From: Acidobacteriota bacterium
GTDB lineage: Bacteria > Acidobacteriota > Terriglobia > Bryobacterales > Bryobacteraceae
NCBI GenBank assembly: GCA_016870995.1
Contig: VFZU01000013.1
Coordinates: forward strand, 1 to 64,000
Direction of reading: 5' to 3'
DNA: 64,000 nt
Numbering within the stretch: the stretch's first letter is position 1; every line of letters starts with the position of its first letter. The position numbers were made by a program, and so were the translations under genes. The notes beneath the pieces are model-generated. The model was not told where the DNA came from and searched no databases. It saw only the letters and a list, made by a program, of their open reading frames with translations. Positions 37,291 to 52,633 of the stretch are shown in pieces.

Positions 37291-39204
37291 ATGATTCGTA
37301 TTGCCATAGTTGCGGCATTCTGTTTCGCCATTTGTTTGTATGGCCAATCAAAAGAGGGAGATGTCGCCAATGCCGCCTACGCGCATTTGAACGCTGGGCG
37401 CCTGTTAGAGGCGCGACAATCCTTTGAGGCTTCTCTTGCGGCCGATCCCCGTCAGCTTGAGGTCCGCCTCGATTATGCGTATCTACTACTGAAGCTCGGC
37501 GAGACGGAATCTGGGCGCGATGAGCTGAAGCGTGTCCTTGCCCAAAAGCCCGATGACGAGAGGCTCATGCTCGAGTACGCCTATCTCGCCTTTGAAACCG
37601 GCAAGCGACCTGAAGCCTTTGAGCTGTTTATTCGTTTAAAACTTGCGAAAGATGAATCGATCCGGTCGCAAGCCGCTAGCACCTTTGCTCGTCTCGACTC
37701 CGAATTAAAACTTTCGATCGAACGCTGGCGGGAAGCCGCGGCCAAATCGCCCGATAGCTACAGCGTCCATGAGGAGCTTGCTCGATTGCTGGAAGAGCGC
37801 AACGCCTGGGTTGAAGCAGCTGCCGAATACCGTATTGCGTTTGGTCTCAAGCCCGACAAGCGTCGCTTTCTGCTCGACATTGCCCGGGTTGAACTTGAGG
37901 CGGTCCGTCCTGATTATGCAAGTGCTGCCATCATTGCCGCATCTCGCGGAACGCCGGCAATGGTTGCTGAAGAAGCACGCGAGTTTCTTCCAGCACGATA
38001 TCCCTACGTGTATGAATTCGAGCTGGCCATTCAGATGGATCCTCTCAATGTTGCACTTCGCCGGGAGCTCGGCTTTCTGTTGCTGAAAATGAATCGCGAG
38101 CGCGAAGCCGTTGCTGTGTTTGAGGCGCTTCTGAAGTTGGCTCCCGATGATGCTCTCGCGATTGCTCAATTGGCCTTTCTGCGCGTCAATCGTCCAGCTG
38201 CGCCACCAGTTGATAACGGCCTTACCGCGGTGAAAGAACTTGCCGACAAGAGCTTCGAGAGAGGTTATCTCAAAGATGCGCTCAAGTATCTCGAACAGCT
38301 GCATGAATCGAATCCCGACGACGCCGCCACCACGCTTCGCCTCGGTTGGACCTACAACATGCTCAAGCTGGATCGCGATGCGGTGCGGTGCTTTGACACT
38401 GCGCGCCGAAGCACTGATTCCAAGATCGCGGCTGAAGCCGATCAGGCGTATCGCAGCCTTAGTCCATCGCTGGCGCCCGTACGCACGACAGTCTGGATGC
38501 TGCCGTTCTATTCATCCCGTTGGCGCGAAGGATTTGCTTATTCCCAGATCAAGGCTGAGTTCCGCTTGCCTTTCACCAAGCTGCGTCCTTATCTGTCCAC
38601 TCGCTTTATTGGCGACATGAATTTCAATAGTGGTCTCTTGCGCGGACCTGCAGGCCAGGTCACTCCTGGTGGACTCAGCGAAAATGCTGTGGTCACGGCG
38701 GTGGGTGTTGCTACTCCCCGGTCGCACAACCTGATGGCCTGGGGAGAGGCTGGTGGTTCCTGGCAGTACTTTGCCCAACGAAATGGCACTGCCACGATCC
38801 GGTCTGACTTCAGGGGTGGCGTCAACTTTGCGCGTGGCTTTGGTGCTGCAAACTTTTCGAGTGAAGGCGGGTGGTTTGCTGTAACGACTGCCGACGCTGT
38901 CTATCTGAGCCGCTTCAACAACAACACACTTTTCTACAGCCAGAATCGGGTTGGCTATCACCCCGATGGTTCGGCTCTGCAGTTCTACATCAATCTCAAT
39001 CTCACCACTGATGTGCAGCGTATGGACTGGGCGAACTATTTTGAAATCGGCCCTGGCGTCCGCTGGCAGGCGCCTGGCCTGCCCAGGTCGCTTTATCTCT
39101 TTGCCGATTTCATCTACGGTCGCCACATGCTGAAGGGCGACCCTTCACGTGCACGCAAGTTCACCGATTTTCGGGCAGGAGTCTGGTATGCGTTTACTCG
39201 TTAG
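37291..39204 (+). CDS. TPR protein with C-terminal outer-membrane beta-barrel-like domain
   Basis: Signal peptide, several TPR units (ALAAQ/ALKYLEQL...ATTLRLGWTYNML), C-terminal aromatic-rich strands ending RKFTDFRAGVWYAFTR. Confidence 0.72.
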   Translation: MIRIAIVAAFCFAICLYGQSKEGDVANAAYAHLNAGRLLEARQSFEASLAADPRQLEVRLDYAYLLLKLGETESGRDELKRVLAQKPDDERLMLEYAYLAFETGKRPEAFELFIRLKLAKDESIRSQAASTFARLDSELKLSIERWREAAAKSPDSYSVHEELARLLEERNAWVEAAAEYRIAFGLKPDKRRFLLDIARVELEAVRPDYASAAIIAASRGTPAMVAEEAREFLPARYPYVYEFELAIQMDPLNVALRRELGFLLLKMNREREAVAVFEALLKLAPDDALAIAQLAFLRVNRPAAPPVDNGLTAVKELADKSFERGYLKDALKYLEQLHESNPDDAATTLRLGWTYNMLKLDRDAVRCFDTARRSTDSKIAAEADQAYRSLSPSLAPVRTTVWMLPFYSSRWREGFAYSQIKAEFRLPFTKLRPYLSTRFIGDMNFNSGLLRGPAGQVTPGGLSENAVVTAVGVATPRSHNLMAWGEAGGSWQYFAQRNGTATIRSDFRGGVNFARGFGAANFSSEGGWFAVTTADAVYLSRFNNNTLFYSQNRVGYHPDGSALQFYINLNLTTDVQRMDWANYFEIGPGVRWQAPGLPRSLYLFADFIYGRHMLKGDPSRARKFTDFRAGVWYAFTR

Positions 39205-41095
39205 CTTTGTTTGTTTATCGCTTCACGCGCAGACTTATTCAAACACTGCAAACAAGCCTGGTTGGGATAGCGTGCTCACTTCGCTTGGCCTGGTTGCAAC
39301 CGATTCTGCCGATGCAAAGGTACTTGTTGGCGCCACTGCAGTCACACCGGGAAAGCTCGTCGTGCTCGAAGGCCATTCCGCGCTTGCGGCTAGTTTGGGC
39401 ATCACACCTTCCGGCCAACAAGTCGAAATTCGTCAGATCCGCGATACGGCTAGCCCCGAACTGCCTATCGTCTGGCAGTCTCCGCTCTTGATCGATCAGG
39501 CCACTGTTGATGCCGCCTGGACGGTCCGCGCTCGTGACCGTTGGTCCAACTCCCCCGTGCTCGCCACACGCTCTGGAGCGATTTGGACTGCGACGCCCAT
39601 TGGCCAGTCTGGTTACGAGCGTTACCCTTTTCTGCCTCAGGCTCTGCTTGCGGCTGGCCTCGATGCCCCCGTTCGTGCACAGGGCCTTTGGGCCTTTTTC
39701 GACGCGGGTTTTCGCCAACGGGCCGACCTGCGGCATCTTGTGACTCAGTGGAAGGCCGCGGGTCTCGGTGGTATTCATGTCACCAGTTGGCAGTTTGACG
39801 ATGCTAGCCCTGAGCGCGCCGCCTGGCTCAAAAATCTCATTGATCTCTGCCATGAAAATCTGATTGTGGTCTACGCATGGGTGGAGCTGCCGCACGTCAG
39901 CGAGCACTTCTGGCAGCAGTATCCCCAATGTCGCGAACGGACGGCCAGCGGTATGGAGGCCAGCCTCGATTGGCGGCGCCTGATGACACTCGTTGATCCT
40001 AAGTGCTCCCAGCTGGCCGAAGACAACATTCTCGCCCTCTTGCGCCGATTCGATTGGGACGGTGTCAACCTCGGCGAACTCTATTTTGAATCGCTCGAAG
40101 GCCACCTGAACCCGGCTCGCTTCACGCCCTTTCATGATTCCGTTCGCGCTGAATACAAGCAACTCCATGGCCGCGATCCACTTGATGACCTCAAGAGGGA
40201 CGGCCTCGCGACTCTGCTTGAATATCGCGCCAATCTTGCCGCGCGCTTGCAATCCGACTGGCTCGCCAAGCTTGAAGTCATTCGCCGCGAGCGCCCCGGT
40301 TTCGACATCGTCGTCACCCACATTGACGATCGTTTCGACACCCGCATGCGCGATGCTCTTGGTGCAGATGCCGCGCGGATTCTCCGATCGACAGAAGGGC
40401 AGGAAACCGGCTTTCTTGTCGAAGACCCCGCTACCGTCTGGCATCTCGGCCCGGCCCGATACCGCGAGATCCGAAAGCGCTACGAGTCTCTTACTTCAGA
40501 ACATGCCCGCCTCTCGATCGATATCAATATCGTCGACCGCTATCAGGATGTTTACCCCACCCGCCGCCAAACCGGCGCTGAACTGGCACAGCTCGTGCAT
40601 GAGGCCGCGGCTGCATTCGATCAGGTCGCTCTCTATTTTGAATATTCGCTGCGCCCCGTCGATCTCCCGCTGCTTGGGCTTGCTGCTGCTCGGCTCACGG
40701 CCTGGCGGCAATCGAACGATGGCGTCGAGGTGACTTTGGCAGCTCCCGCCATGGTGCGCTGGCAAGGCCCGGCGTTGGTGAATGGAATTCCCTGGCCATT
40801 GGCAGATGGCGCGCACCTCCATCTCCCTGCGGGCAATTGGCGCATCGAACGGGCCGCTGCGTATCCTGTGAATCGCATCGTCGACCTCAATGTGAGGCTG
40901 GAAGGGGTTGAACTCGCCCAAGGCGAATACACGATTCGCTACACGTCCCGCACTACCGGAACTCTGCTTGTAGAGACCGCATTAGGCCGCGAGCGGCGCA
41001 CGCTCCCGCGCGGCGGCGGGGTGTTCACGCTTAGCGCGAAGCCACTTCCGTTTTCGGTTGAGAGTAATTCAGTGCAACTTCGTCCCCAGCGCTAA
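39188..41095 (+). CDS. Secreted TIM-barrel glycosidase-like protein (GH10-like / PgaB C-terminal-like)
   Basis: QWKAAGLGGIHVTSWQFDD, HENLIVVYAWVELPHVSEHFW, FDWDGVNLGELYFE, FDIVVTHIDDRFDT; start codon overlaps the preceding gene. Confidence 0.6.
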   Translation: MRLLVSFVCLSLHAQTYSNTANKPGWDSVLTSLGLVATDSADAKVLVGATAVTPGKLVVLEGHSALAASLGITPSGQQVEIRQIRDTASPELPIVWQSPLLIDQATVDAAWTVRARDRWSNSPVLATRSGAIWTATPIGQSGYERYPFLPQALLAAGLDAPVRAQGLWAFFDAGFRQRADLRHLVTQWKAAGLGGIHVTSWQFDDASPERAAWLKNLIDLCHENLIVVYAWVELPHVSEHFWQQYPQCRERTASGMEASLDWRRLMTLVDPKCSQLAEDNILALLRRFDWDGVNLGELYFESLEGHLNPARFTPFHDSVRAEYKQLHGRDPLDDLKRDGLATLLEYRANLAARLQSDWLAKLEVIRRERPGFDIVVTHIDDRFDTRMRDALGADAARILRSTEGQETGFLVEDPATVWHLGPARYREIRKRYESLTSEHARLSIDINIVDRYQDVYPTRRQTGAELAQLVHEAAAAFDQVALYFEYSLRPVDLPLLGLAAARLTAWRQSNDGVEVTLAAPAMVRWQGPALVNGIPWPLADGAHLHLPAGNWRIERAAAYPVNRIVDLNVRLEGVELAQGEYTIRYTSRTTGTLLVETALGRERRTLPRGGGVFTLSAKPLPFSVESNSVQLRPQR

Positions 41096-44501: not shown

Positions 44502-45368
44502 TTATATAGCCGACAGCCCGCGCAGGTTCCAGCCGCAGATCGTAGAACCAAGCATTTTGTTGCCATCCGGCCCCGGCCAATGCGTCTCAAGGCTCAGGGA
44601 ACCCCGATACCCATCTGCCACCAGCGCTGCAACTTGCCCCTTCCAATCCACGTGTCGCGAGCCGACCGGGCCCCACACCGGCTTGTGACCTTCCATGTGG
44701 CAATCCTTCACGTGTACATGCGCGATGCGGTCTTTCGGCAGCAGCCCGTAGCCATGAGGAAACGGCTCTTCGCCAGCTACCAGTGCATTTGCCGGATCCC
44801 ATACCAGCTTGAGATTCGGATGCACCACGCGCTCCAGAATTGCCTTCGATTCTTCCGCAGTCCCGATATGGCAGGCATGTTCGTTTTCAATGCCGATAAT
44901 CACGTTTTGCTTGGCGGCCTTGTCGGCCAGGTCCGTCAACGCACTGACGACTGCTTCAAAGCAGGCCTCTGGCTCCACGGTGCGCCAGTAGCTGAACACG
45001 CGGATGATCTTGGCACCCGTCAATTCACAAAGCCGGAACGCCCGGTCGAGCAATCTCGGCTGATCGTCAAAGGTGTGCTTCGAATTAAAAATGTCCTGTT
45101 GGAAACGCGTATCCACAGCCGGGCCATTGGGCAGCACGCACTTCAAGATCGGCGAAGCAATTCCGAGAATCGAAACTCCCTTGGCCGCGCAAAGATCCCG
45201 CGCCCGCAGCACTTCCTCGTCGCTCAAGTCCATGATGTTCTTGCCGAACACGACGCGCAATTCCGCGCCGGTCATTCCAATCGAAGCCATCGGCTCCAGA
45301 GCCGCCTCCAGATCGGTGGGCGAAAATTCATCGGTGATTGCCGCAATGGGCAGCTTCAGTTCGTTCAT
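44502..45368 (-). CDS. Sugar phosphate isomerase/epimerase (xylose isomerase-like TIM barrel)
   Basis: IGIENEHACHIGTAEESKAILERVVHPNLKLVWDPANALV, HVHVKDCHMEGHKPVWGPVGSRHVDW. Confidence 0.88.
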   Translation of the reverse strand: MNELKLPIAAITDEFSPTDLEAALEPMASIGMTGAELRVVFGKNIMDLSDEEVLRARDLCAAKGVSILGIASPILKCVLPNGPAVDTRFQQDIFNSKHTFDDQPRLLDRAFRLCELTGAKIIRVFSYWRTVEPEACFEAVVSALTDLADKAAKQNVIIGIENEHACHIGTAEESKAILERVVHPNLKLVWDPANALVAGEEPFPHGYGLLPKDRIAHVHVKDCHMEGHKPVWGPVGSRHVDWKGQVAALVADGYRGSLSLETHWPGPDGNKMLGSTICGWNLRGLSAI

Positions 45369-46996
45369 TTCTCTATCAGTTTCTCAGAGTCTTCTCGAAT
45401 CACATAGCGCTTCCGCCCAGCGACATTCTGAAACCGTTGCTTCTTGCCGTTTGGCCATTCGACTTCGATCAATTTCGCCGCCGCTTCCTGGTTCAATCCA
45501 AAGTGCAGAGCCAAATCGGACTGACTCAGATAACTCGAGCCGGATCGGACCATCTGCCATTGCTTTGCCGCGCCAGTATCCACGCGCACCACAGCGCCCA
45601 GCGCAGACCGATTCGACGTTACACCTTCCAGCTTCAGCTCAAGCCAGCTGAGCCTGTTGCCGCCTTCATTCTTGAAGAACGACACCGGCCCGTGATTGTT
45701 GTTGATCACGATGTCGAGATCGCCGTCACGATCGTAATCCGCATAAGCCGCCCCGCGCGCCACTATCCGCTTCATCAGATCTGCCCCGCGGCTGCGCGAT
45801 ACATCTTCAAATCCGCCCTTGCCCGTGTTGCGAAACAACAGCGGTGCCTGCCGGAACGATACCTTGGGTTGCACCCGGTTGATCTCTTCGTCGATGTGTC
45901 CGTTCGCCGCGAAGATATCGAGCCACCCGTCGTTATCGAAATCGAAAAAGAACACGCCAAAGGCCAGGCTCAACAAGCTGGCCTTGCCGATGGTTCTGCG
46001 GGGTGCTTCATCGACAAACAATCCTCGCCCCTCGTTGTGATAAAGCCCCAGCATCTGATTCGAGAAATTTCCCACCAACAAATGCGGCCGGCCTGAGCGG
46101 TCATAATCTGCCGCATCGACGCCCATTGCGCCGCGCGCGACGCCATCCTCACCAAATGCAATTCCTGCCGCCACGGCTTCCTCGCTAAAGGTTCCGTTCT
46201 TGTTGTTGCGGTACAGCTTGTTCGGCTGTGTGTCGTTGGCGCTGAAGATGTCCGGCCATCCGTCGCCGTTGTAGTCGAACACGGCCACTCCCAGCGTTTT
46301 TGACGTTGGATCTCCGAGGCCTGCCTTCTGCGTTGCGTCTTCAAACTTGCCGCTGCCGAGATTCCGGTACAGCTTCACGCTCTGCCCCTTGTACGATTCC
46401 GGTGTGCAATAGCTCTTGGTTGATCCATCGAGAGAGCAGAACAAATCCCTCTTGGCCTCCCATCTCACATAGTTCCCTACAAACACGTCGGCCTTGCCAT
46501 CTTTGTCGTAGTCGAGCCATGCCGCGCTCGTGCCGAAGGCCTTGTTGTTGATCCCCGCTGTCGCTGTCACATCCTTGAACTTGAAGTTCCCCTCGTTGTG
46601 CAGCAACTTGTCGCCGTCGAGCGAACTGATGTACAAATCTTCTCGCCCGTCGTTGTCATAATCTGCGGCGGCTCCGCCCATTGCGTACTTCTCGACATCG
46701 AGACCGCTGCCGAGGGTCACGTTCGTGAACGTGCCATTGCGGTTGTTCTTGTAGAGCGCGCTCAGCGGCTTGCGTCCCCGAGGAGACCAGTCCCGCGAGT
46801 TCAATAAAAGCAGGTCTGTCCAACCATCCCCATCGGCGTCGAACCAGACCACGCCGCTGCCCATCGTCTCAGGCAGCCACTTCTTCCCAGCCCGTCCGGA
46901 GTTGTGGGTAAATTTCACTCCCGCCTCAACACTTGCCTCGCGAAACGACTCCGCCGCCAGCGGCAACGCCAAACACAACACCACCAAACTCTTCAT
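45365..46996 (-). CDS. CRTAC1-family protein (FG-GAP/VCBS repeats + ASPIC/UnbV)
   Basis: Repeated D-x-D-x-DGxxD motifs (WFDADGDGWTDLLL, DYDNDGREDLYI, DYDRDGDLDIVI) and C-terminal SWLELKLEGVTSNRSALGAVVRVDTG. Confidence 0.9.
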   Translation of the reverse strand: MKSLVVLCLALPLAAESFREASVEAGVKFTHNSGRAGKKWLPETMGSGVVWFDADGDGWTDLLLLNSRDWSPRGRKPLSALYKNNRNGTFTNVTLGSGLDVEKYAMGGAAADYDNDGREDLYISSLDGDKLLHNEGNFKFKDVTATAGINNKAFGTSAAWLDYDKDGKADVFVGNYVRWEAKRDLFCSLDGSTKSYCTPESYKGQSVKLYRNLGSGKFEDATQKAGLGDPTSKTLGVAVFDYNGDGWPDIFSANDTQPNKLYRNNKNGTFSEEAVAAGIAFGEDGVARGAMGVDAADYDRSGRPHLLVGNFSNQMLGLYHNEGRGLFVDEAPRRTIGKASLLSLAFGVFFFDFDNDGWLDIFAANGHIDEEINRVQPKVSFRQAPLLFRNTGKGGFEDVSRSRGADLMKRIVARGAAYADYDRDGDLDIVINNNHGPVSFFKNEGGNRLSWLELKLEGVTSNRSALGAVVRVDTGAAKQWQMVRSGSSYLSQSDLALHFGLNQEAAAKLIEVEWPNGKKQRFQNVAGRKRYVIREDSEKLIEK

Positions 46997-49617
46997 CGAA
47001 TCTTGCCACTTTCATGATCGTGAATCGGCTGCCGCTCGTTGTTGTCCTCAGGGCTCAACATGCGCGGCTTGGCCGTTACCGCCTGCGCTGACTCATCCAC
47101 CTTAAATCGCCGGAACAACTTCTCAGAATAGGCAGCTTTGTCTGTCGCTCCGAGTCCGCGATACGACAGCATCAGGTTGTAATGCGCCTGCACGTCCTCG
47201 CTATCCACTTCGAGCACGCGCTCGAGATACTTCACCGCCGTCGCGTAATCCCGCTTCAAAAACAGGATGCGCCCCATCTGGTTCAACATCACGCGGTCTC
47301 GCGGATACTGTTCTTCCACCTTGTGCAACGAAGCGATCGCCGCATCGTAATCGCCATCCGATTTCTCCGTCATCGCCTTGAAGAAGTGAACTCTCGCGAG
47401 TTTCGGATTCCTTTCCATGGCCTTTGCCAAATACCCTTTGGCCTTCTCCGTCTCGCCTTCCTGAATCAGCGCCCTCGCCACATTCAGCCAGCCGTCAGCA
47501 TACTCGGGCTCGGCCTCCGTCACTCGCTGAAAGGCATACTCGGCACCTTTCAGGTCGCCTTGTAGCAGCAACCCGATGCCCCAGTCGTTCCAGCGTTCCC
47601 GATCCTTCTTTGTAACTGCGGGCTTCCAATTGGTTGCGCCAGCCCCCACTTCGGCTTTTGCCGTCGCCATCGTCACAATCGGAATCACCGGCACCCGATC
47701 CTTCACCGGCCCCGAAACATCGGGCCGCTTCTCATAAGAGAACTCGTTGTAGCTGTGCGCGAACTTTCGGTAATTCAGCTTCGCCTCGAAACGGAACGGA
47801 GCCTTCGCAGTCTTCGGAATCTGAACTCGGTAATGTACCGTGTCAGCCGCACCTGGCGGAATCAATCGCACATACAGGGCGCTTCGTGCCTGCCACGCGT
47901 TCCGCTTGTTGATGTGATTGCCTTCGGCATCGACCATGTAGCTGCGATAAAAATGCGCTCCTTTGTCCACCGGGCCCTTGCCGTCATCCTCGGCTTTGCC
48001 AGACCAGAAGAACACCTTGCCATCGGCATCCTTGCCCTGCAATTCGAGCCAGAGATCGTACGCATCCACCGTGCCACCAGGGAAAAAGTGCCCAACGCGA
48101 CGCGTCCTTACGACAGCATCCACTCGCACAGTCGATCCTGGCTCCACTGTTACCTTGGCCGTATCGATTGGCGCTGCCACTTTCGATACTTCACGGATGA
48201 AGAACTGCCCGGCCGTTTCGGCCTCTTCACCCACCGCCATGGTTGAGTTCAGGCTTTGCGTATCTCCAGCCCGCCGCAACATGGGCGCTTGCCCTTTCAT
48301 CTCTTCGACGGGAGTAATCGCGAACAGATCGACGGTCACAAAGCCGCTCTTCAAGAAGTTCACGGTTTCCTCAAGTTGTTTCTTGTCCCCATTCACGCTG
48401 GGGACGGCTGTATTGGCCGTTGCGAATCGATGCGAATGCACGCGACCATTCCGGTTGCCGGGGTCGTTGGAGGCAACCATCGGCATGTGACAGTCATTGC
48501 AGGTGCTTGGCTTGGCCGGATAGTAGAAGCTCCGCGCTCCTTGTCCCGATACCGCCGATGCCTGCCAGTTGTCGTAGTCGTTGAATCCCCGCAACCAGCG
48601 GTAATCGTTCACCGGCTGATCCAGATGCACCTTGTGGCAGGTCGAGCAATACTCGGCCGATTGTTCCCTCATGAACGGCTTGATGAAGGTCTTTCGGTGC
48701 GGTTCTGGGTCTGCGTAGGTCAAGAAGTTATCGAGCATTCTCACGTAGCGGTTCCGGCTCGATGCCAGCTCATGCATTGGCGGGTACTCAATGACGAAGT
48801 TCCCATTGCCGACGCTTCCCTTCACGTGAACAATTGAATGGCACGACAAGCAGCCCAGCCCATTCTGTGCTTCAGGTGTGTAGACCTGATCCTTGATCGG
48901 TTGCTCCCACTTGCCGTTGAAGAACACCGCATGATCGTGGCATCCCGCGCACCACTTGGAAGGCTGCGTGGATTTCTGCACATCCTGCATGTACTCAATC
49001 GAGCGCCGGTAGTACTGATTATTGAAGCTCGAGAAGTGGTGCATCGAGCTGTTCCACTGCTCGTAGATGTCCTTATGGCACTCCCCGCAGAGTTTCGAAT
49101 CCATGAAGAAGTTCGAAGGGATGGTCTTCTTCACATCCGTATCGGCGGGCGATGGCCAGAACGGCCCTTTCTCTCGGCCCTCTTCGTGCATCGATGCCGG
49201 GATCACCAGTTGCCGGTTCGTCAGCTTTTGGCTCGGCGCGTAATACGCCCGATCGTAGAAATAAGTCGCCAGCGGCAACATCGACAAGCCGGCAACGGCT
49301 ACGCGATGCTGTTTGCTCACCCAGGCAGCGCCAACCACTCCTACTGCGATATGGCCCGCCAACACCCATGCTTGATCTGACGTATTTCCAACAATCGCCA
49401 GATACATCCCAACCATCAGGGCTACTGCCAACAACCCTGCCGCTATGGGTTTCTCGCGCCGCAGCATCCACACGAGTGTTCCTACTACGATCGCCCCACC
49501 GACAATGTGCAAAAGCACATTCGCCATGTAAAACAGATTTGCCTGCGCGAAAGCGGCCAAATAAGCGCTATTCAGCAGTAGCAGGGCAAAAGCGCCCCAC
49601 ACCAAACGTTGAATCAT
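46993..49617 (-). CDS. Membrane-anchored multiheme c-type cytochrome with C-terminal TPR repeats
   Basis: N-terminal TM segments; five CxxCH motifs (CGECH, CAGCH, CLSCH, CSTCH, CNDCH); TPRs such as YADGWLNVARALIQEGETEKAKGYLAKAMERNP. Confidence 0.88.
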   Translation of the reverse strand: MIQRLVWGAFALLLLNSAYLAAFAQANLFYMANVLLHIVGGAIVVGTLVWMLRREKPIAAGLLAVALMVGMYLAIVGNTSDQAWVLAGHIAVGVVGAAWVSKQHRVAVAGLSMLPLATYFYDRAYYAPSQKLTNRQLVIPASMHEEGREKGPFWPSPADTDVKKTIPSNFFMDSKLCGECHKDIYEQWNSSMHHFSSFNNQYYRRSIEYMQDVQKSTQPSKWCAGCHDHAVFFNGKWEQPIKDQVYTPEAQNGLGCLSCHSIVHVKGSVGNGNFVIEYPPMHELASSRNRYVRMLDNFLTYADPEPHRKTFIKPFMREQSAEYCSTCHKVHLDQPVNDYRWLRGFNDYDNWQASAVSGQGARSFYYPAKPSTCNDCHMPMVASNDPGNRNGRVHSHRFATANTAVPSVNGDKKQLEETVNFLKSGFVTVDLFAITPVEEMKGQAPMLRRAGDTQSLNSTMAVGEEAETAGQFFIREVSKVAAPIDTAKVTVEPGSTVRVDAVVRTRRVGHFFPGGTVDAYDLWLELQGKDADGKVFFWSGKAEDDGKGPVDKGAHFYRSYMVDAEGNHINKRNAWQARSALYVRLIPPGAADTVHYRVQIPKTAKAPFRFEAKLNYRKFAHSYNEFSYEKRPDVSGPVKDRVPVIPIVTMATAKAEVGAGATNWKPAVTKKDRERWNDWGIGLLLQGDLKGAEYAFQRVTEAEPEYADGWLNVARALIQEGETEKAKGYLAKAMERNPKLARVHFFKAMTEKSDGDYDAAIASLHKVEEQYPRDRVMLNQMGRILFLKRDYATAVKYLERVLEVDSEDVQAHYNLMLSYRGLGATDKAAYSEKLFRRFKVDESAQAVTAKPRMLSPEDNNERQPIHDHESGKIR

Positions 49618-49618
49618 A

Positions 49619-52600
49619 CTACCTCAAGATCGACAAAGGCCTCAATAGTCTCAGCGCGGGCCGCGTATTGAATCGCTTTTCTGCATCCCCCGCTGGAGAG
49701 CTTTCTGACTCCAGCTTATATGAATATCCACTCATCCGGTGAAACGGCAACGGACCTACACTCTGCGAGTACGCAGTGTTTGCATCGCGGTCTTTGGCCC
49801 AGCCATCCACATGCAGCAGATAATCTCTTCGCCAGCCAGAAGGCAATGCAGGCAAACCTGCGGTATCGAACTCAAGCCGCAACTCGTCTCCGGAGCCCAT
49901 CACGGCCAATTTGTCATCGATCGCAAGCGTCAATTCCTTCACATCGCCGTACCGTGTGTAGTTTCCTGGTGTCGGGTTCCACAGAGAAGTGGGTTCTGGA
50001 TTCGGATACGAAAATTCTTCCGGCTGCTTTCGCTCTGGGTGAATCACTGAGGGTGAAAATCCGCGGAACTGCAAGCTGGCCGCGCTGGCATTGAGCGCCG
50101 TCAACACGTGCTCAGGTCGCGCACTTCCTTCGCTCAAGAAGATCTCATCCCAATACACACAAAGGTTCGTCACGATCCGCACCTCGCGGCTGGTGCTCAA
50201 GAACGTGTTCGTCAAATCGACAACCATCGCCTTCGGCTTTCCCGACGGCATGCCCATGTCCTCGATCACCGTCACCCATTCCCCGCGCTTGTTTTTCACC
50301 TGCAATGAGGGTGGCGAGAGCGGCTTGCCTTCTTGCGCTGCGGCGAGAAACGTTGAGCCATCCGCCCAATCCACCCATCCTGACAACACCAGGATCGCGT
50401 TGTTCTTCGCCGCTACATTTCCGAAGTCCAATGTCAGCGTATGGCGCTCTGCCACACCCGCCGTCGACCTCTTATAGAAGTTCGGATAGGTTCGGTCCTT
50501 TGCAGCCAGCAGTGCTGTCACATCATTGCCCAGATGATCGACGGCCTTTCGTGCGTGGACCGCATTCTTCACCCCATACAGCTGAAACTCAGGAAACGGC
50601 GGCGCCTTCCACTTCTCATTTGAGTACACTCGCGTGTCGGCAGGATGATCCACCGCGAGCAGCCGCACCTGATCGAAATAAGCCGCTTCGCTCAATTCTT
50701 CAGTCAGCCTCACCTCCAGTCGCCCTGCGGCATTTGGCTTGAGTTGTTCGCCCGCAATCGAGATGTACTCATCATGATCGGTCGCAAAGAACGTCCCATC
50801 ACCTGCGCTCGCACCCAGCGGCGCTACGCCCAGGACATCTGTGATGTACTCGAAGCCTTCGCCGTTAAACGTCCACACAATTGGGCACGACCCCGACAAT
50901 CGCTGCGCCTCTTTATAGCGCCCCGGCGTCGCGACTGCCTGCTTCATCTCGTTTTGAATCAACCCGTTCGGCCAGGTGATCCGCACCACCTCCACCTGCG
51001 TCGCTTTGCCCACTCCAAAGTTCAACGCAAAGCCCTCGTAGAGCTTCTTTTGATACAAGCCGCCCGCCCGTACTTCAATCTCTGCTCCGGGTGCCGACTT
51101 GATGTTCTTCACCCCTTCGAGCGTCACCTTCAACACCTTGTTCAGCAAGGGCGTCACGTTTAAGTTCTCGATCCAACCCGAAGGCCGCAACTGCACCAGA
51201 TCTGTCTTGCCATCGTTGTTCAGGTCGAGCGCCGCAGCTCCAGCTACCAGCTCATAACGCCCATCATTGCGAAGGTCTGCAATCACGGCTTGCCCCATCA
51301 GACCCGCCACTCTTGTAGCTTTTGCCAATCCAGCCGTCACCATCACGCGATCGCCATCGCTGAACACGACATCGAGCACGCTATCCTGATCCACATCCCC
51401 AACCACCAGATTCTTCGCGCCAGCCGGAATCACGGCCAGGTCTTCCCGTGCATATTTGCCTAGCAATAAATCCCGGTACAAGGCACCAGTGCCCGCAGCA
51501 AAGCTCACAATTACATCGAACCCGCGTGTATCCGGCACCACCCGAGTCACCACGGCATCGACTATCTCACCAGTTCCAAACGGGAACAGCTCGCTCTTGT
51601 CGGCAAAACCCGCTTCGCCCTGATTGCGCAACAGCAGACTCTTCTCGCCGAACACCAGCAAGTCAAGATCATAGTCGTGATCAAAATCTATAAACACACA
51701 CTTGTTGAATTTGCCGCGTGCCGGCAGTGGCAACTGCCTCCATCCCGTGCCCGTATTCTGCACGAGCACTGGCATTTCTTCACCCACAACACACAAATCC
51801 ACCAGTCCGTCGTTGTTGAAATCTCCCGCCGACACATTCCTCGCGCCGCTCACGCTTGCGATCCGTTTGCCTCCGATACTCAAGCCCTGCGCATCCCAAT
51901 ACAGCGCCTGATTGCCTAGCGCAATTGCACCCTTCCACGCATCGGCCAGCTTACGCTCCTGCCACCGCAATATCGTCTTGTCGCGAAGCGGTGCTGCTGG
52001 CTTTGGATCATAAATTTCTGAATACTGGCACCAATCTACATCCTCGGGTACTGCAGCTCCCTCGGTTAGTTTCTTTAGCCCTTGAAAAACCTCAAGTTGC
52101 ACCTTCGCATCGTTTGCCCGCCCAGCCTGCCGGTACATGTTGAACAATTGAAACCGCGCCGCCGCCAGATTCACGTCTAGCTTCATCGCCCGCTCAAACG
52201 CGGCCGTTGCTCCCGCTGCATCGCCCAACTGCTTCAGCAATACCCCAACGTTGTAATGCAGAATCGGCTCTTTCGCATCGAGCTTCACCGCCCCCTGCAT
52301 CTGCTCCAGTGCCTTCTGCGTCTCGCCCTGCTTCTTCAGCTCAATGCCTACCGTGAACCACGTATGTGGCAGCTCCGGCTTCTCTTTCTGCACCGTTAGC
52401 AGTTGCGCGATCCCTTCTTGTGCCTGCCCAGCCCGCAGTAGGGCGAGGCCATAATTCAGGCGCTCCCGCGCCGACTTTGGTGCGAGATCCAGCGCCTGCT
52501 TCAGCGTCACCACCGCTTCTTTTTGCGTCGTTGGATTTTCATAGAACGCCTTGCCCAGATTGCGTAGCGCCTCAAGCCGTGCCTCCTGTGCAAACGCAAA

Positions 52601-52633
52601 TCCACACATCAAAAAAAAGAAGATCAGTTTCAT
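49619..52633 (-). CDS. TPR + FG-GAP/VCBS + ASPIC/UnbV protein with large uncharacterised C-terminal region
   Basis: N-terminal TPRs (AVTLKQALDLAPKSARERLNYGLALLRAG...), central GDFNNDGLVDLCVVGEE / DFDHDYDLDLLVFGE repeats, UnbV-like GAEIEVRAGGLYQKKLYEGFALNFGVGKATQVEVVRITWPNGL. Confidence 0.85.
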   Translation of the reverse strand: MKLIFFFLMCGFAFAQEARLEALRNLGKAFYENPTTQKEAVVTLKQALDLAPKSARERLNYGLALLRAGQAQEGIAQLLTVQKEKPELPHTWFTVGIELKKQGETQKALEQMQGAVKLDAKEPILHYNVGVLLKQLGDAAGATAAFERAMKLDVNLAAARFQLFNMYRQAGRANDAKVQLEVFQGLKKLTEGAAVPEDVDWCQYSEIYDPKPAAPLRDKTILRWQERKLADAWKGAIALGNQALYWDAQGLSIGGKRIASVSGARNVSAGDFNNDGLVDLCVVGEEMPVLVQNTGTGWRQLPLPARGKFNKCVFIDFDHDYDLDLLVFGEKSLLLRNQGEAGFADKSELFPFGTGEIVDAVVTRVVPDTRGFDVIVSFAAGTGALYRDLLLGKYAREDLAVIPAGAKNLVVGDVDQDSVLDVVFSDGDRVMVTAGLAKATRVAGLMGQAVIADLRNDGRYELVAGAAALDLNNDGKTDLVQLRPSGWIENLNVTPLLNKVLKVTLEGVKNIKSAPGAEIEVRAGGLYQKKLYEGFALNFGVGKATQVEVVRITWPNGLIQNEMKQAVATPGRYKEAQRLSGSCPIVWTFNGEGFEYITDVLGVAPLGASAGDGTFFATDHDEYISIAGEQLKPNAAGRLEVRLTEELSEAAYFDQVRLLAVDHPADTRVYSNEKWKAPPFPEFQLYGVKNAVHARKAVDHLGNDVTALLAAKDRTYPNFYKRSTAGVAERHTLTLDFGNVAAKNNAILVLSGWVDWADGSTFLAAAQEGKPLSPPSLQVKNKRGEWVTVIEDMGMPSGKPKAMVVDLTNTFLSTSREVRIVTNLCVYWDEIFLSEGSARPEHVLTALNASAASLQFRGFSPSVIHPERKQPEEFSYPNPEPTSLWNPTPGNYTRYGDVKELTLAIDDKLAVMGSGDELRLEFDTAGLPALPSGWRRDYLLHVDGWAKDRDANTAYSQSVGPLPFHRMSGYSYKLESESSPAGDAEKRFNTRPALRLLRPLSILR

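Follow-up and report, generated by a model that had tools for sequence, protein, structure and literature searches.

Two overlapping genes in the genome of an Acidobacteriota bacterium of the family Bryobacteraceae encode a TPR protein with a predicted outer-membrane β-barrel (here termed the channel protein) and a secreted glycoside-hydrolase-like protein (the hydrolase). Nearly all of the Bryobacteraceae genomes sampled carry the pair, usually in a single copy. We propose, with a probability of roughly 60%, that it constitutes a translationally coupled module for exopolysaccharide processing and export, whose two products probably trim and export a sugar polymer. This reading is preferred because homologs of the hydrolase in other Acidobacteriota families are fused to a DUF2334 domain, with a gene for a GT2 glycosyltransferase adjoining the fusion in 11 of 13 loci.

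Acidobacteria rank with the dominant bacteria of soil, and little has been described of their machinery for exopolysaccharides. A survey of synthase-dependent operons published in PLoS Comput Biol in 2020 leaves the Acidobacteriota unmentioned in its main text (PMC7112194). To the initial annotation of this DNA, the present analysis adds the conservation of the pair across the family, a signature of translational coupling, a putative active site, and the operons in which more distant relatives are found.

The Gene Pair and Its Distribution

The window, i.e., the whole stretch of 64,000 nucleotides that was analysed, belongs to contig 13 of a host genome that is 99% complete. Close relatives are Bryobacter MAGs, whose hydrolases are about 60–66% identical to that of the window. 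A check of the ORFs places both genes and their overlap where the initial annotation had put them (Table 1). Its observation that neither a synthase nor a deacetylase gene adjoins the pair was borne out. Neither promoter nor terminator scans around the pair gave signals above chance.

Table 1. Features of the gene pair, with positions in the window.
Feature	Position	Strand	Basis
TPR + C-terminal outer-membrane β-barrel protein (channel protein), 637 aa	37291..39204	+	ORF, Pfam TPR, AlphaFold, Foldseek, adjacency to hydrolase gene
Predicted 12-strand β-barrel domain, residues 397–637	38479..39201	+	AlphaFold secondary structure
C-terminal β-signal R-x-G-x-x-Y-x-F, residues 628–635	39172..39195	+	Residue conservation, codon statistics
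17-nt overlap of channel-gene end and hydrolase-gene start	39188..39204	+	Identical offset in 66/71 loci
Secreted glycoside-hydrolase-like protein, 635 aa	39188..41095	+	AlphaFold, Foldseek
TIM-barrel predicted catalytic domain, residues 167–500	39686..40687	+	Invariant D172, D291, E297, D380, D413, D445

Among 200 genomes sampled at the level of the class, the hydrolase gene is present in 39 of the 41 Bryobacteraceae, usually as one copy. The two genomes without it (G089 and G185), both apparently complete, are also devoid of the channel gene. Adjacency was counted over 80 loci from the GTDB collection, 74 of which had enough upstream sequence to be evaluated. In 73 of them, the channel gene is the immediate upstream neighbour of the hydrolase gene, in the same orientation, the exception being locus L072. 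Clustering of the neighbouring genes around the pair revealed no further conserved partner, and thus the unit comprises exactly two genes. Their conservation through a whole bacterial family indicates more than a chance association.

Overlap and Probable Translational Coupling

The GTG at position 39149, annotated as the start of the hydrolase gene, stems from a mechanical ORF caller, whereas the conserved start is the ATG at 39188, which precedes the final base of the channel gene by 16 nt in 66 of 71 loci. This ATG falls within the β-signal codons TGG TAT GCN, which encode an invariant Trp-Tyr and a near-invariant Ala. The codon usage around it is strongly biased. Tyr is encoded by TAT in 69 of 70 channel genes, compared with 37% in the remainder of these genes (Fisher p 6e-28), and the Gly codon three codons before it has a purine at its third position in 55 of 70, compared with 32% elsewhere (p 2e-15), both p-values being computed as though the sequences were unrelated. 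A purine-ending Gly codon yields a Shine-Dalgarno-like GGA or GGG, the former in the present locus. Since these synonymous sites are kept across proteins of about 40% identity, they suggest selection on the translation of the hydrolase gene, and the placement of the start codon within the β-signal points to a selected translational coupling. If this reading of the codon pattern is right, the pair offers a clear example of an outer-membrane β-signal that harbours the start codon of the next gene.

The Channel Protein

The channel protein begins with an N-terminal signal peptide (MIRIAIVAAFCFAICLYGQ) and has TPR matches in Pfam. In its AlphaFold model (pLDDT 88.9, pTM 0.47), TPR helices extend up to residue 394 and are followed by 12 strands at residues 397–636. 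Given the low pTM, the geometry of the TPR part relative to the barrel is uncertain in this model. Foldseek matches are in the main TPR proteins; among the 50 matches listed, BcsC of E. coli (9b8a/9b8h) is the one that combines TPR with an outer-membrane barrel. A search of the barrel region alone against Pfam gave no match. The predicted β domain ends in the motif R-x-G-x-x-Y-x-F, which we take to be the outer-membrane β-signal consensus. A TPR scaffold joined to a predicted outer-membrane barrel is therefore present, as judged from the Pfam repeats, the AlphaFold strands, the BcsC fold, and the β-signal. The initial annotation had described a TPR protein with a signal peptide and an apparent C-terminal barrel, and had made this description depend on structure prediction. 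The predicted model does contain a barrel-like C-terminal β domain and is consistent with that description. The strands number 12, not 16 as in PgaA, and this count, together with the uncertain placement of the barrel, speaks against an exopolysaccharide function.

The Hydrolase-Like Protein

The AlphaFold model of the hydrolase (pLDDT 91.2, pTM 0.92) comprises a signal peptide, a β-rich N-terminal domain, the TIM barrel, and C-terminal β domains. Together with the Foldseek matches, it agrees with the earlier description of a secreted TIM-barrel hydrolase-like protein. The best Foldseek match by target-normalised TM score is Cwp19 from C. difficile (TMt 0.63). The C-terminal domain of PgaB (4p7n) reaches a TMt of 0.60, and the matches also include GH42 and GH20 exo-enzymes. 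At the sequence level, the hydrolase has no family match in Pfam, even at E 10, nor in NCBIfam, no credible match among PDB sequences, and no match to Cwp19 in sequence profiles. A literature search on Cwp19 returned nothing. Weak Pfam similarity to GHL10 (PF02638) and GHL6 (PF14871) is seen in most homologs, the best E values among them being 4.3e-5 and 9.1e-5, respectively. Membership in these two families was rejected: the window hydrolase does not match them, and the fusion homologs checked (see below) stay under the curated cut-offs in the hydrolase region.

The hydrolase assignment had been made to depend on the presence of catalytic acids, and conserved acids are found. D172, E297, D380, D413, and D445 are located at the C-terminal ends of strands β1, β4, β5, β6, and β7, respectively, and are invariant, together with D291, H222, and R263, both in the Bryobacteraceae and in distant clades. 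In PgaB, D474 (numbering of the Bordetella enzyme) is the probable catalytic residue, while D326, D328, D364, and E585 bind the substrate (PMC5933820). E297 is predicted to be the equivalent of D474. Among the fusion homologs, the acids are retained in 11 of the 12 rows checked. In the exception (L154), D172, E297, D380, E412, D413, and D445 are all altered and an N-terminal domain of the GHL6/GHL10 type has been gained, as though a new hydrolase had taken the place of the old one. From the fold and the conserved acids, we infer that the hydrolase is probably a catalytically active glycoside hydrolase of an apparently undescribed family.

Relatives in Synthase Operons

A profile search of the phylum, together with regions from other families of the class, located the same hydrolase in other Acidobacteriota families, where it forms the C-terminal half of proteins of ~1290–1660 aa. 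The homology to the window hydrolase spans its full length (605 columns, probability 100). A DUF2334 domain, presumably of the polysaccharide-deacetylase superfamily, occurs in each of the six fusions scanned with Pfam (E 1e-42 to 1e-50), and the fusions read to their end carry a terminal hydrophobic segment, probably transmembrane. In two of the 11 loci with an adjoining GT2 gene, this gene runs off the end of the contig. The full-length GT2 proteins that were inspected contain DxD, TED, and QxxRW motifs and are processive-type synthases. A UDP-GlcNAc 2-epimerase gene is found in 10 of the 13 fusion loci (once as a fragment at a contig edge), and a small predicted β-barrel of ~240 aa in five of the 13. 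The fusion operons share the layout of deacetylase, hydrolase, and synthase with Pga without being related to PgaB in sequence. A search for the fused hydrolase on plasmids gave no homolog, and a literature search returned no link of DUF2334 to exopolysaccharides or glycosyltransferases.

The link to exopolysaccharides suggested in the initial annotation is strongly supported by these DUF2334-fused homologs beside GT2 synthases. Its idea of a minimal pair holds for the Bryobacteraceae; in related families, the two absent functions, synthase and deacetylase, are encoded in physical linkage with this enzyme.

A phylogenetic tree separates three clades, namely fused, Bryobacteraceae, and standalone. 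The Bryobacteraceae clade stands apart from the fused clade at ~30% identity, an observation that runs counter to the exopolysaccharide reading. The same is true of the small barrel of the fusion operons, for which no relation to the barrel of the channel protein was detectable (hhalign probability 0.2). A member of the distant standalone clade from another family (L121) overlaps an α-L-rhamnosidase gene, which suggests catabolism and is a further point against the exopolysaccharide reading. In one genome (G001), one hydrolase of the fused type and one of the Bryobacteraceae type lie side by side (L115), with the TPR-barrel gene located elsewhere (L116).

While a dedicated synthase accompanies most of the fused homologs, it is absent at the Bryobacteraceae loci. 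The initial annotation had called for a search for PgaC-like glycosyltransferases elsewhere. In the host genome, this search yielded no PgaC equivalog, the best score against TIGR03937 being 101 bits versus a cut-off of 422. Orthologs of the GT2 synthase of the fusion operons are likewise absent from the host, the best relatives having 24–28% identity. The best host GT2 was rejected as a specific partner, because the gene occurs in 189 of 200 genomes of the class and is therefore core to it. The host genome contains no DUF2334 gene and three PF01522 deacetylases, which are unlinked to the pair. The missing DUF2334 and PgaC equivalog and the low identity of the GT2 relatives are points against the exopolysaccharide reading.

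Comparison with Known Systems

The pair resembles PgaA/PgaB in having neighbouring genes for a TPR-barrel outer-membrane protein and a periplasmic TIM-barrel hydrolase protein, the fold of which matches the C-terminal domain of PgaB. In the Pga system, the TPR domain of PgaA scaffolds PgaB (PMC9384988), and the PgaB hydrolase cleaves the deacetylated polymer (PMC5933820). However, there is no detectable sequence homology between the window hydrolase and E. coli PgaB (hhalign E 0.23), and the fold similarity is confined to the C-terminal domain. Unlike PgaB, the window hydrolase is devoid of a deacetylase domain and carries an additional N-terminal domain as well as C-terminal β domains. The profile match of the channel protein to E. 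coli PgaA is limited to the TPR repeats, and assignment to the PgaA family was rejected, as the NCBIfam PgaA models score 10.7–13.3 bits versus cut-offs of 366 and 1043. Neither by sequence nor by gene content (PgaA, PgaB, PgaC) does the pair belong to the pga system. The initial annotation had seen in the pair a mirror of PgaA and the hydrolase domain of PgaB. What stands of it is an analogy of architecture, along with the fold matches; a closer correspondence falls with the lack of PgaB homology, the TPR as the sole part in common with PgaA, and the missing PgaC.

A TPR-barrel exporter with a periplasmic hydrolase is also reminiscent of BcsC/BcsZ in cellulose production, but the hydrolase is not of the BcsZ type, no BcsA equivalent is linked, and fewer strands are predicted in the window barrel. 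PelB is the TPR-barrel partner of PelA, an enzyme with both hydrolase and deacetylase domains, and the Acidobacteriota fusions combine the same two kinds of domain, the second being deacetylase-like. Unlike in PelA, this domain is a DUF2334, placed first, in a protein with a probable C-terminal transmembrane helix, and the synthase of the fusion loci is a GT2 rather than a Pel-type enzyme. The window hydrolase itself differs from PelA in the absence of a deacetylase. With GHL10/GHL6 and Cwp19, the hydrolase shares a similar TIM-barrel fold and, in most homologs, the weak Pfam similarity, whereas the flanking domains and the gene context differ. The DUF2334-GH/GT2/epimerase operon defined here has a hydrolase region to which the window hydrolase is homologous over its full length, but the host has neither the DUF2334 domain nor an adjacent GT2.

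Proposed Function and Alternatives

In the proposed mechanism, the channel protein would form a passage through the outer membrane, and its TPR superhelix in the periplasm would lead a sugar polymer to the C-terminal β-barrel. The hydrolase would be a periplasmic, endo-acting glycoside hydrolase that binds to the TPR scaffold and either shortens the polymer or sets it free on its exit, similarly to the PgaB hydrolase domain with PgaA. The other Acidobacteriota may represent the ancestral or a sister arrangement, in which the hydrolase is combined with a DUF2334 de-N-acetylase-like domain, a processive GT2, and usually a UDP-GlcNAc 2-epimerase. In the Bryobacteraceae, the hydrolase would be a separate protein paired with a TPR-barrel protein of its own, and the polymer would come from a synthase encoded elsewhere. 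More tentatively, and at slightly less than even odds, the Acidobacteriota may own an undescribed synthase-dependent exopolysaccharide system made up of a GT2, a UDP-GlcNAc 2-epimerase, and the DUF2334-hydrolase-transmembrane fusion. From it, the hydrolase would have split off in the Bryobacteraceae to become translationally coupled to a new TPR-barrel exporter, acting on a polymer that possibly contains amino sugars and whose synthase was not found. If the overall reading of the pair is right, it would yield a family of hydrolases whose active site is predicted and which may be of use in biofilm dispersal, as well as a phylum-level polymer operon open to testing.

Transport in the opposite direction has to be considered, with the TPR-barrel protein as an oligosaccharide porin and the hydrolase degrading incoming external glycan in the periplasm. 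The 12 predicted strands would suit an oligosaccharide-specific porin such as NanC or KdgM, and both the α-L-rhamnosidase gene overlapped by the standalone paralog and the GH42 and GH20 exo-enzymes among the fold matches fit digestion. Yet no conserved CAZyme, transporter, or regulator lies beside the pair, which, being single-copy and near-universal in the family, is unlike typical utilisation loci. The occurrence of hydrolase homologs in synthase operons also argues against import, as do long TPR domains fused to barrels, a hallmark of the polysaccharide exporters BcsC, PelB, and PgaA (PMC9384988). Import is thus unlikely in our view. We consider a role in envelope upkeep more doubtful still. 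The substrate of the hydrolase would then be peptidoglycan or some other glycan of the wall, as for Cwp19, and its anchor at the outer membrane would be the TPR-barrel protein. The rank of Cwp19 as top fold match and the core-like, near-universal distribution of the pair are in line with this role, but they are set against the missing Cwp19 match in sequence profiles, the two apparently complete genomes that do without the pair, and the fusion operons, whose genes code for the synthase of a polymer and for a deacetylase-like domain, not for wall synthesis.

Export of a polymer would also be compatible with a hydrolase that has lost its activity and serves the exporter as a polymer-binding chaperone, given that some TIM-barrel proteins of export systems bind polymer without cutting it. 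This is highly improbable considering the invariance of D172, E297, D380, D413, and D445 across very distant clades; the sole homolog that lost the acids (L154) is the one that gained another GH domain.

Hydrolase Homologs at Other Loci

In Acidobacteriota, a conserved operon (L147-L154 and L111-L113) encodes a DUF2334-hydrolase-TM fusion together with a GT2 synthase and a UDP-GlcNAc 2-epimerase, and at several of these loci it includes an additional predicted beta-barrel of ~240 aa without a Pfam match. No account of this operon was found in the literature searched. The L154 fusion has lost all candidate catalytic acids from its C-terminal hydrolase and has acquired an N-terminal domain of the GHL6/GHL10 type.

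Genome G189 carries a second, divergent copy of the TPR-barrel/hydrolase pair, in which the partner of the hydrolase is a TPR-only protein of 295 aa lacking the barrel. In G001, two hydrolases, one from each major clade (DUF2334-fused and Bryobacteraceae), lie side by side, and the TPR-barrel gene is unlinked to them. Elsewhere, a standalone hydrolase paralog (L121) overlaps an alpha-L-rhamnosidase gene, which suggests that the family has a catabolic branch.

Neighboring Genes

A minus-strand HlyD-family gene overlaps the end of the hydrolase gene tail to tail, and a homolog of it was found at only about one quarter of the related loci. Further along the window, a DBI_PRT-type phosphoribosyltransferase gene adjoins the cluster of FG-GAP/ASPIC-UnbV and TPR-cytochrome-like proteins.

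Coordinates of the variant loci and of the neighboring features
Feature	Location	Length
Fusion with altered hydrolase	L154:6217-11196	1659 aa
Divergent second copy of the pair, G189	L119:4132-7037	
Adjacent hydrolases, G001	L115:4821-8104	4 nt (overlap)
Unlinked TPR-barrel gene, G001	L116:5033-6979	
Standalone paralog and alpha-L-rhamnosidase gene	L121:4789-9671	
Tail-to-tail overlap, hydrolase gene/HlyD-family gene (minus strand)	window 41031-41095	65 nt
FG-GAP/ASPIC-UnbV and TPR-cytochrome-like cluster	window 45365-52633
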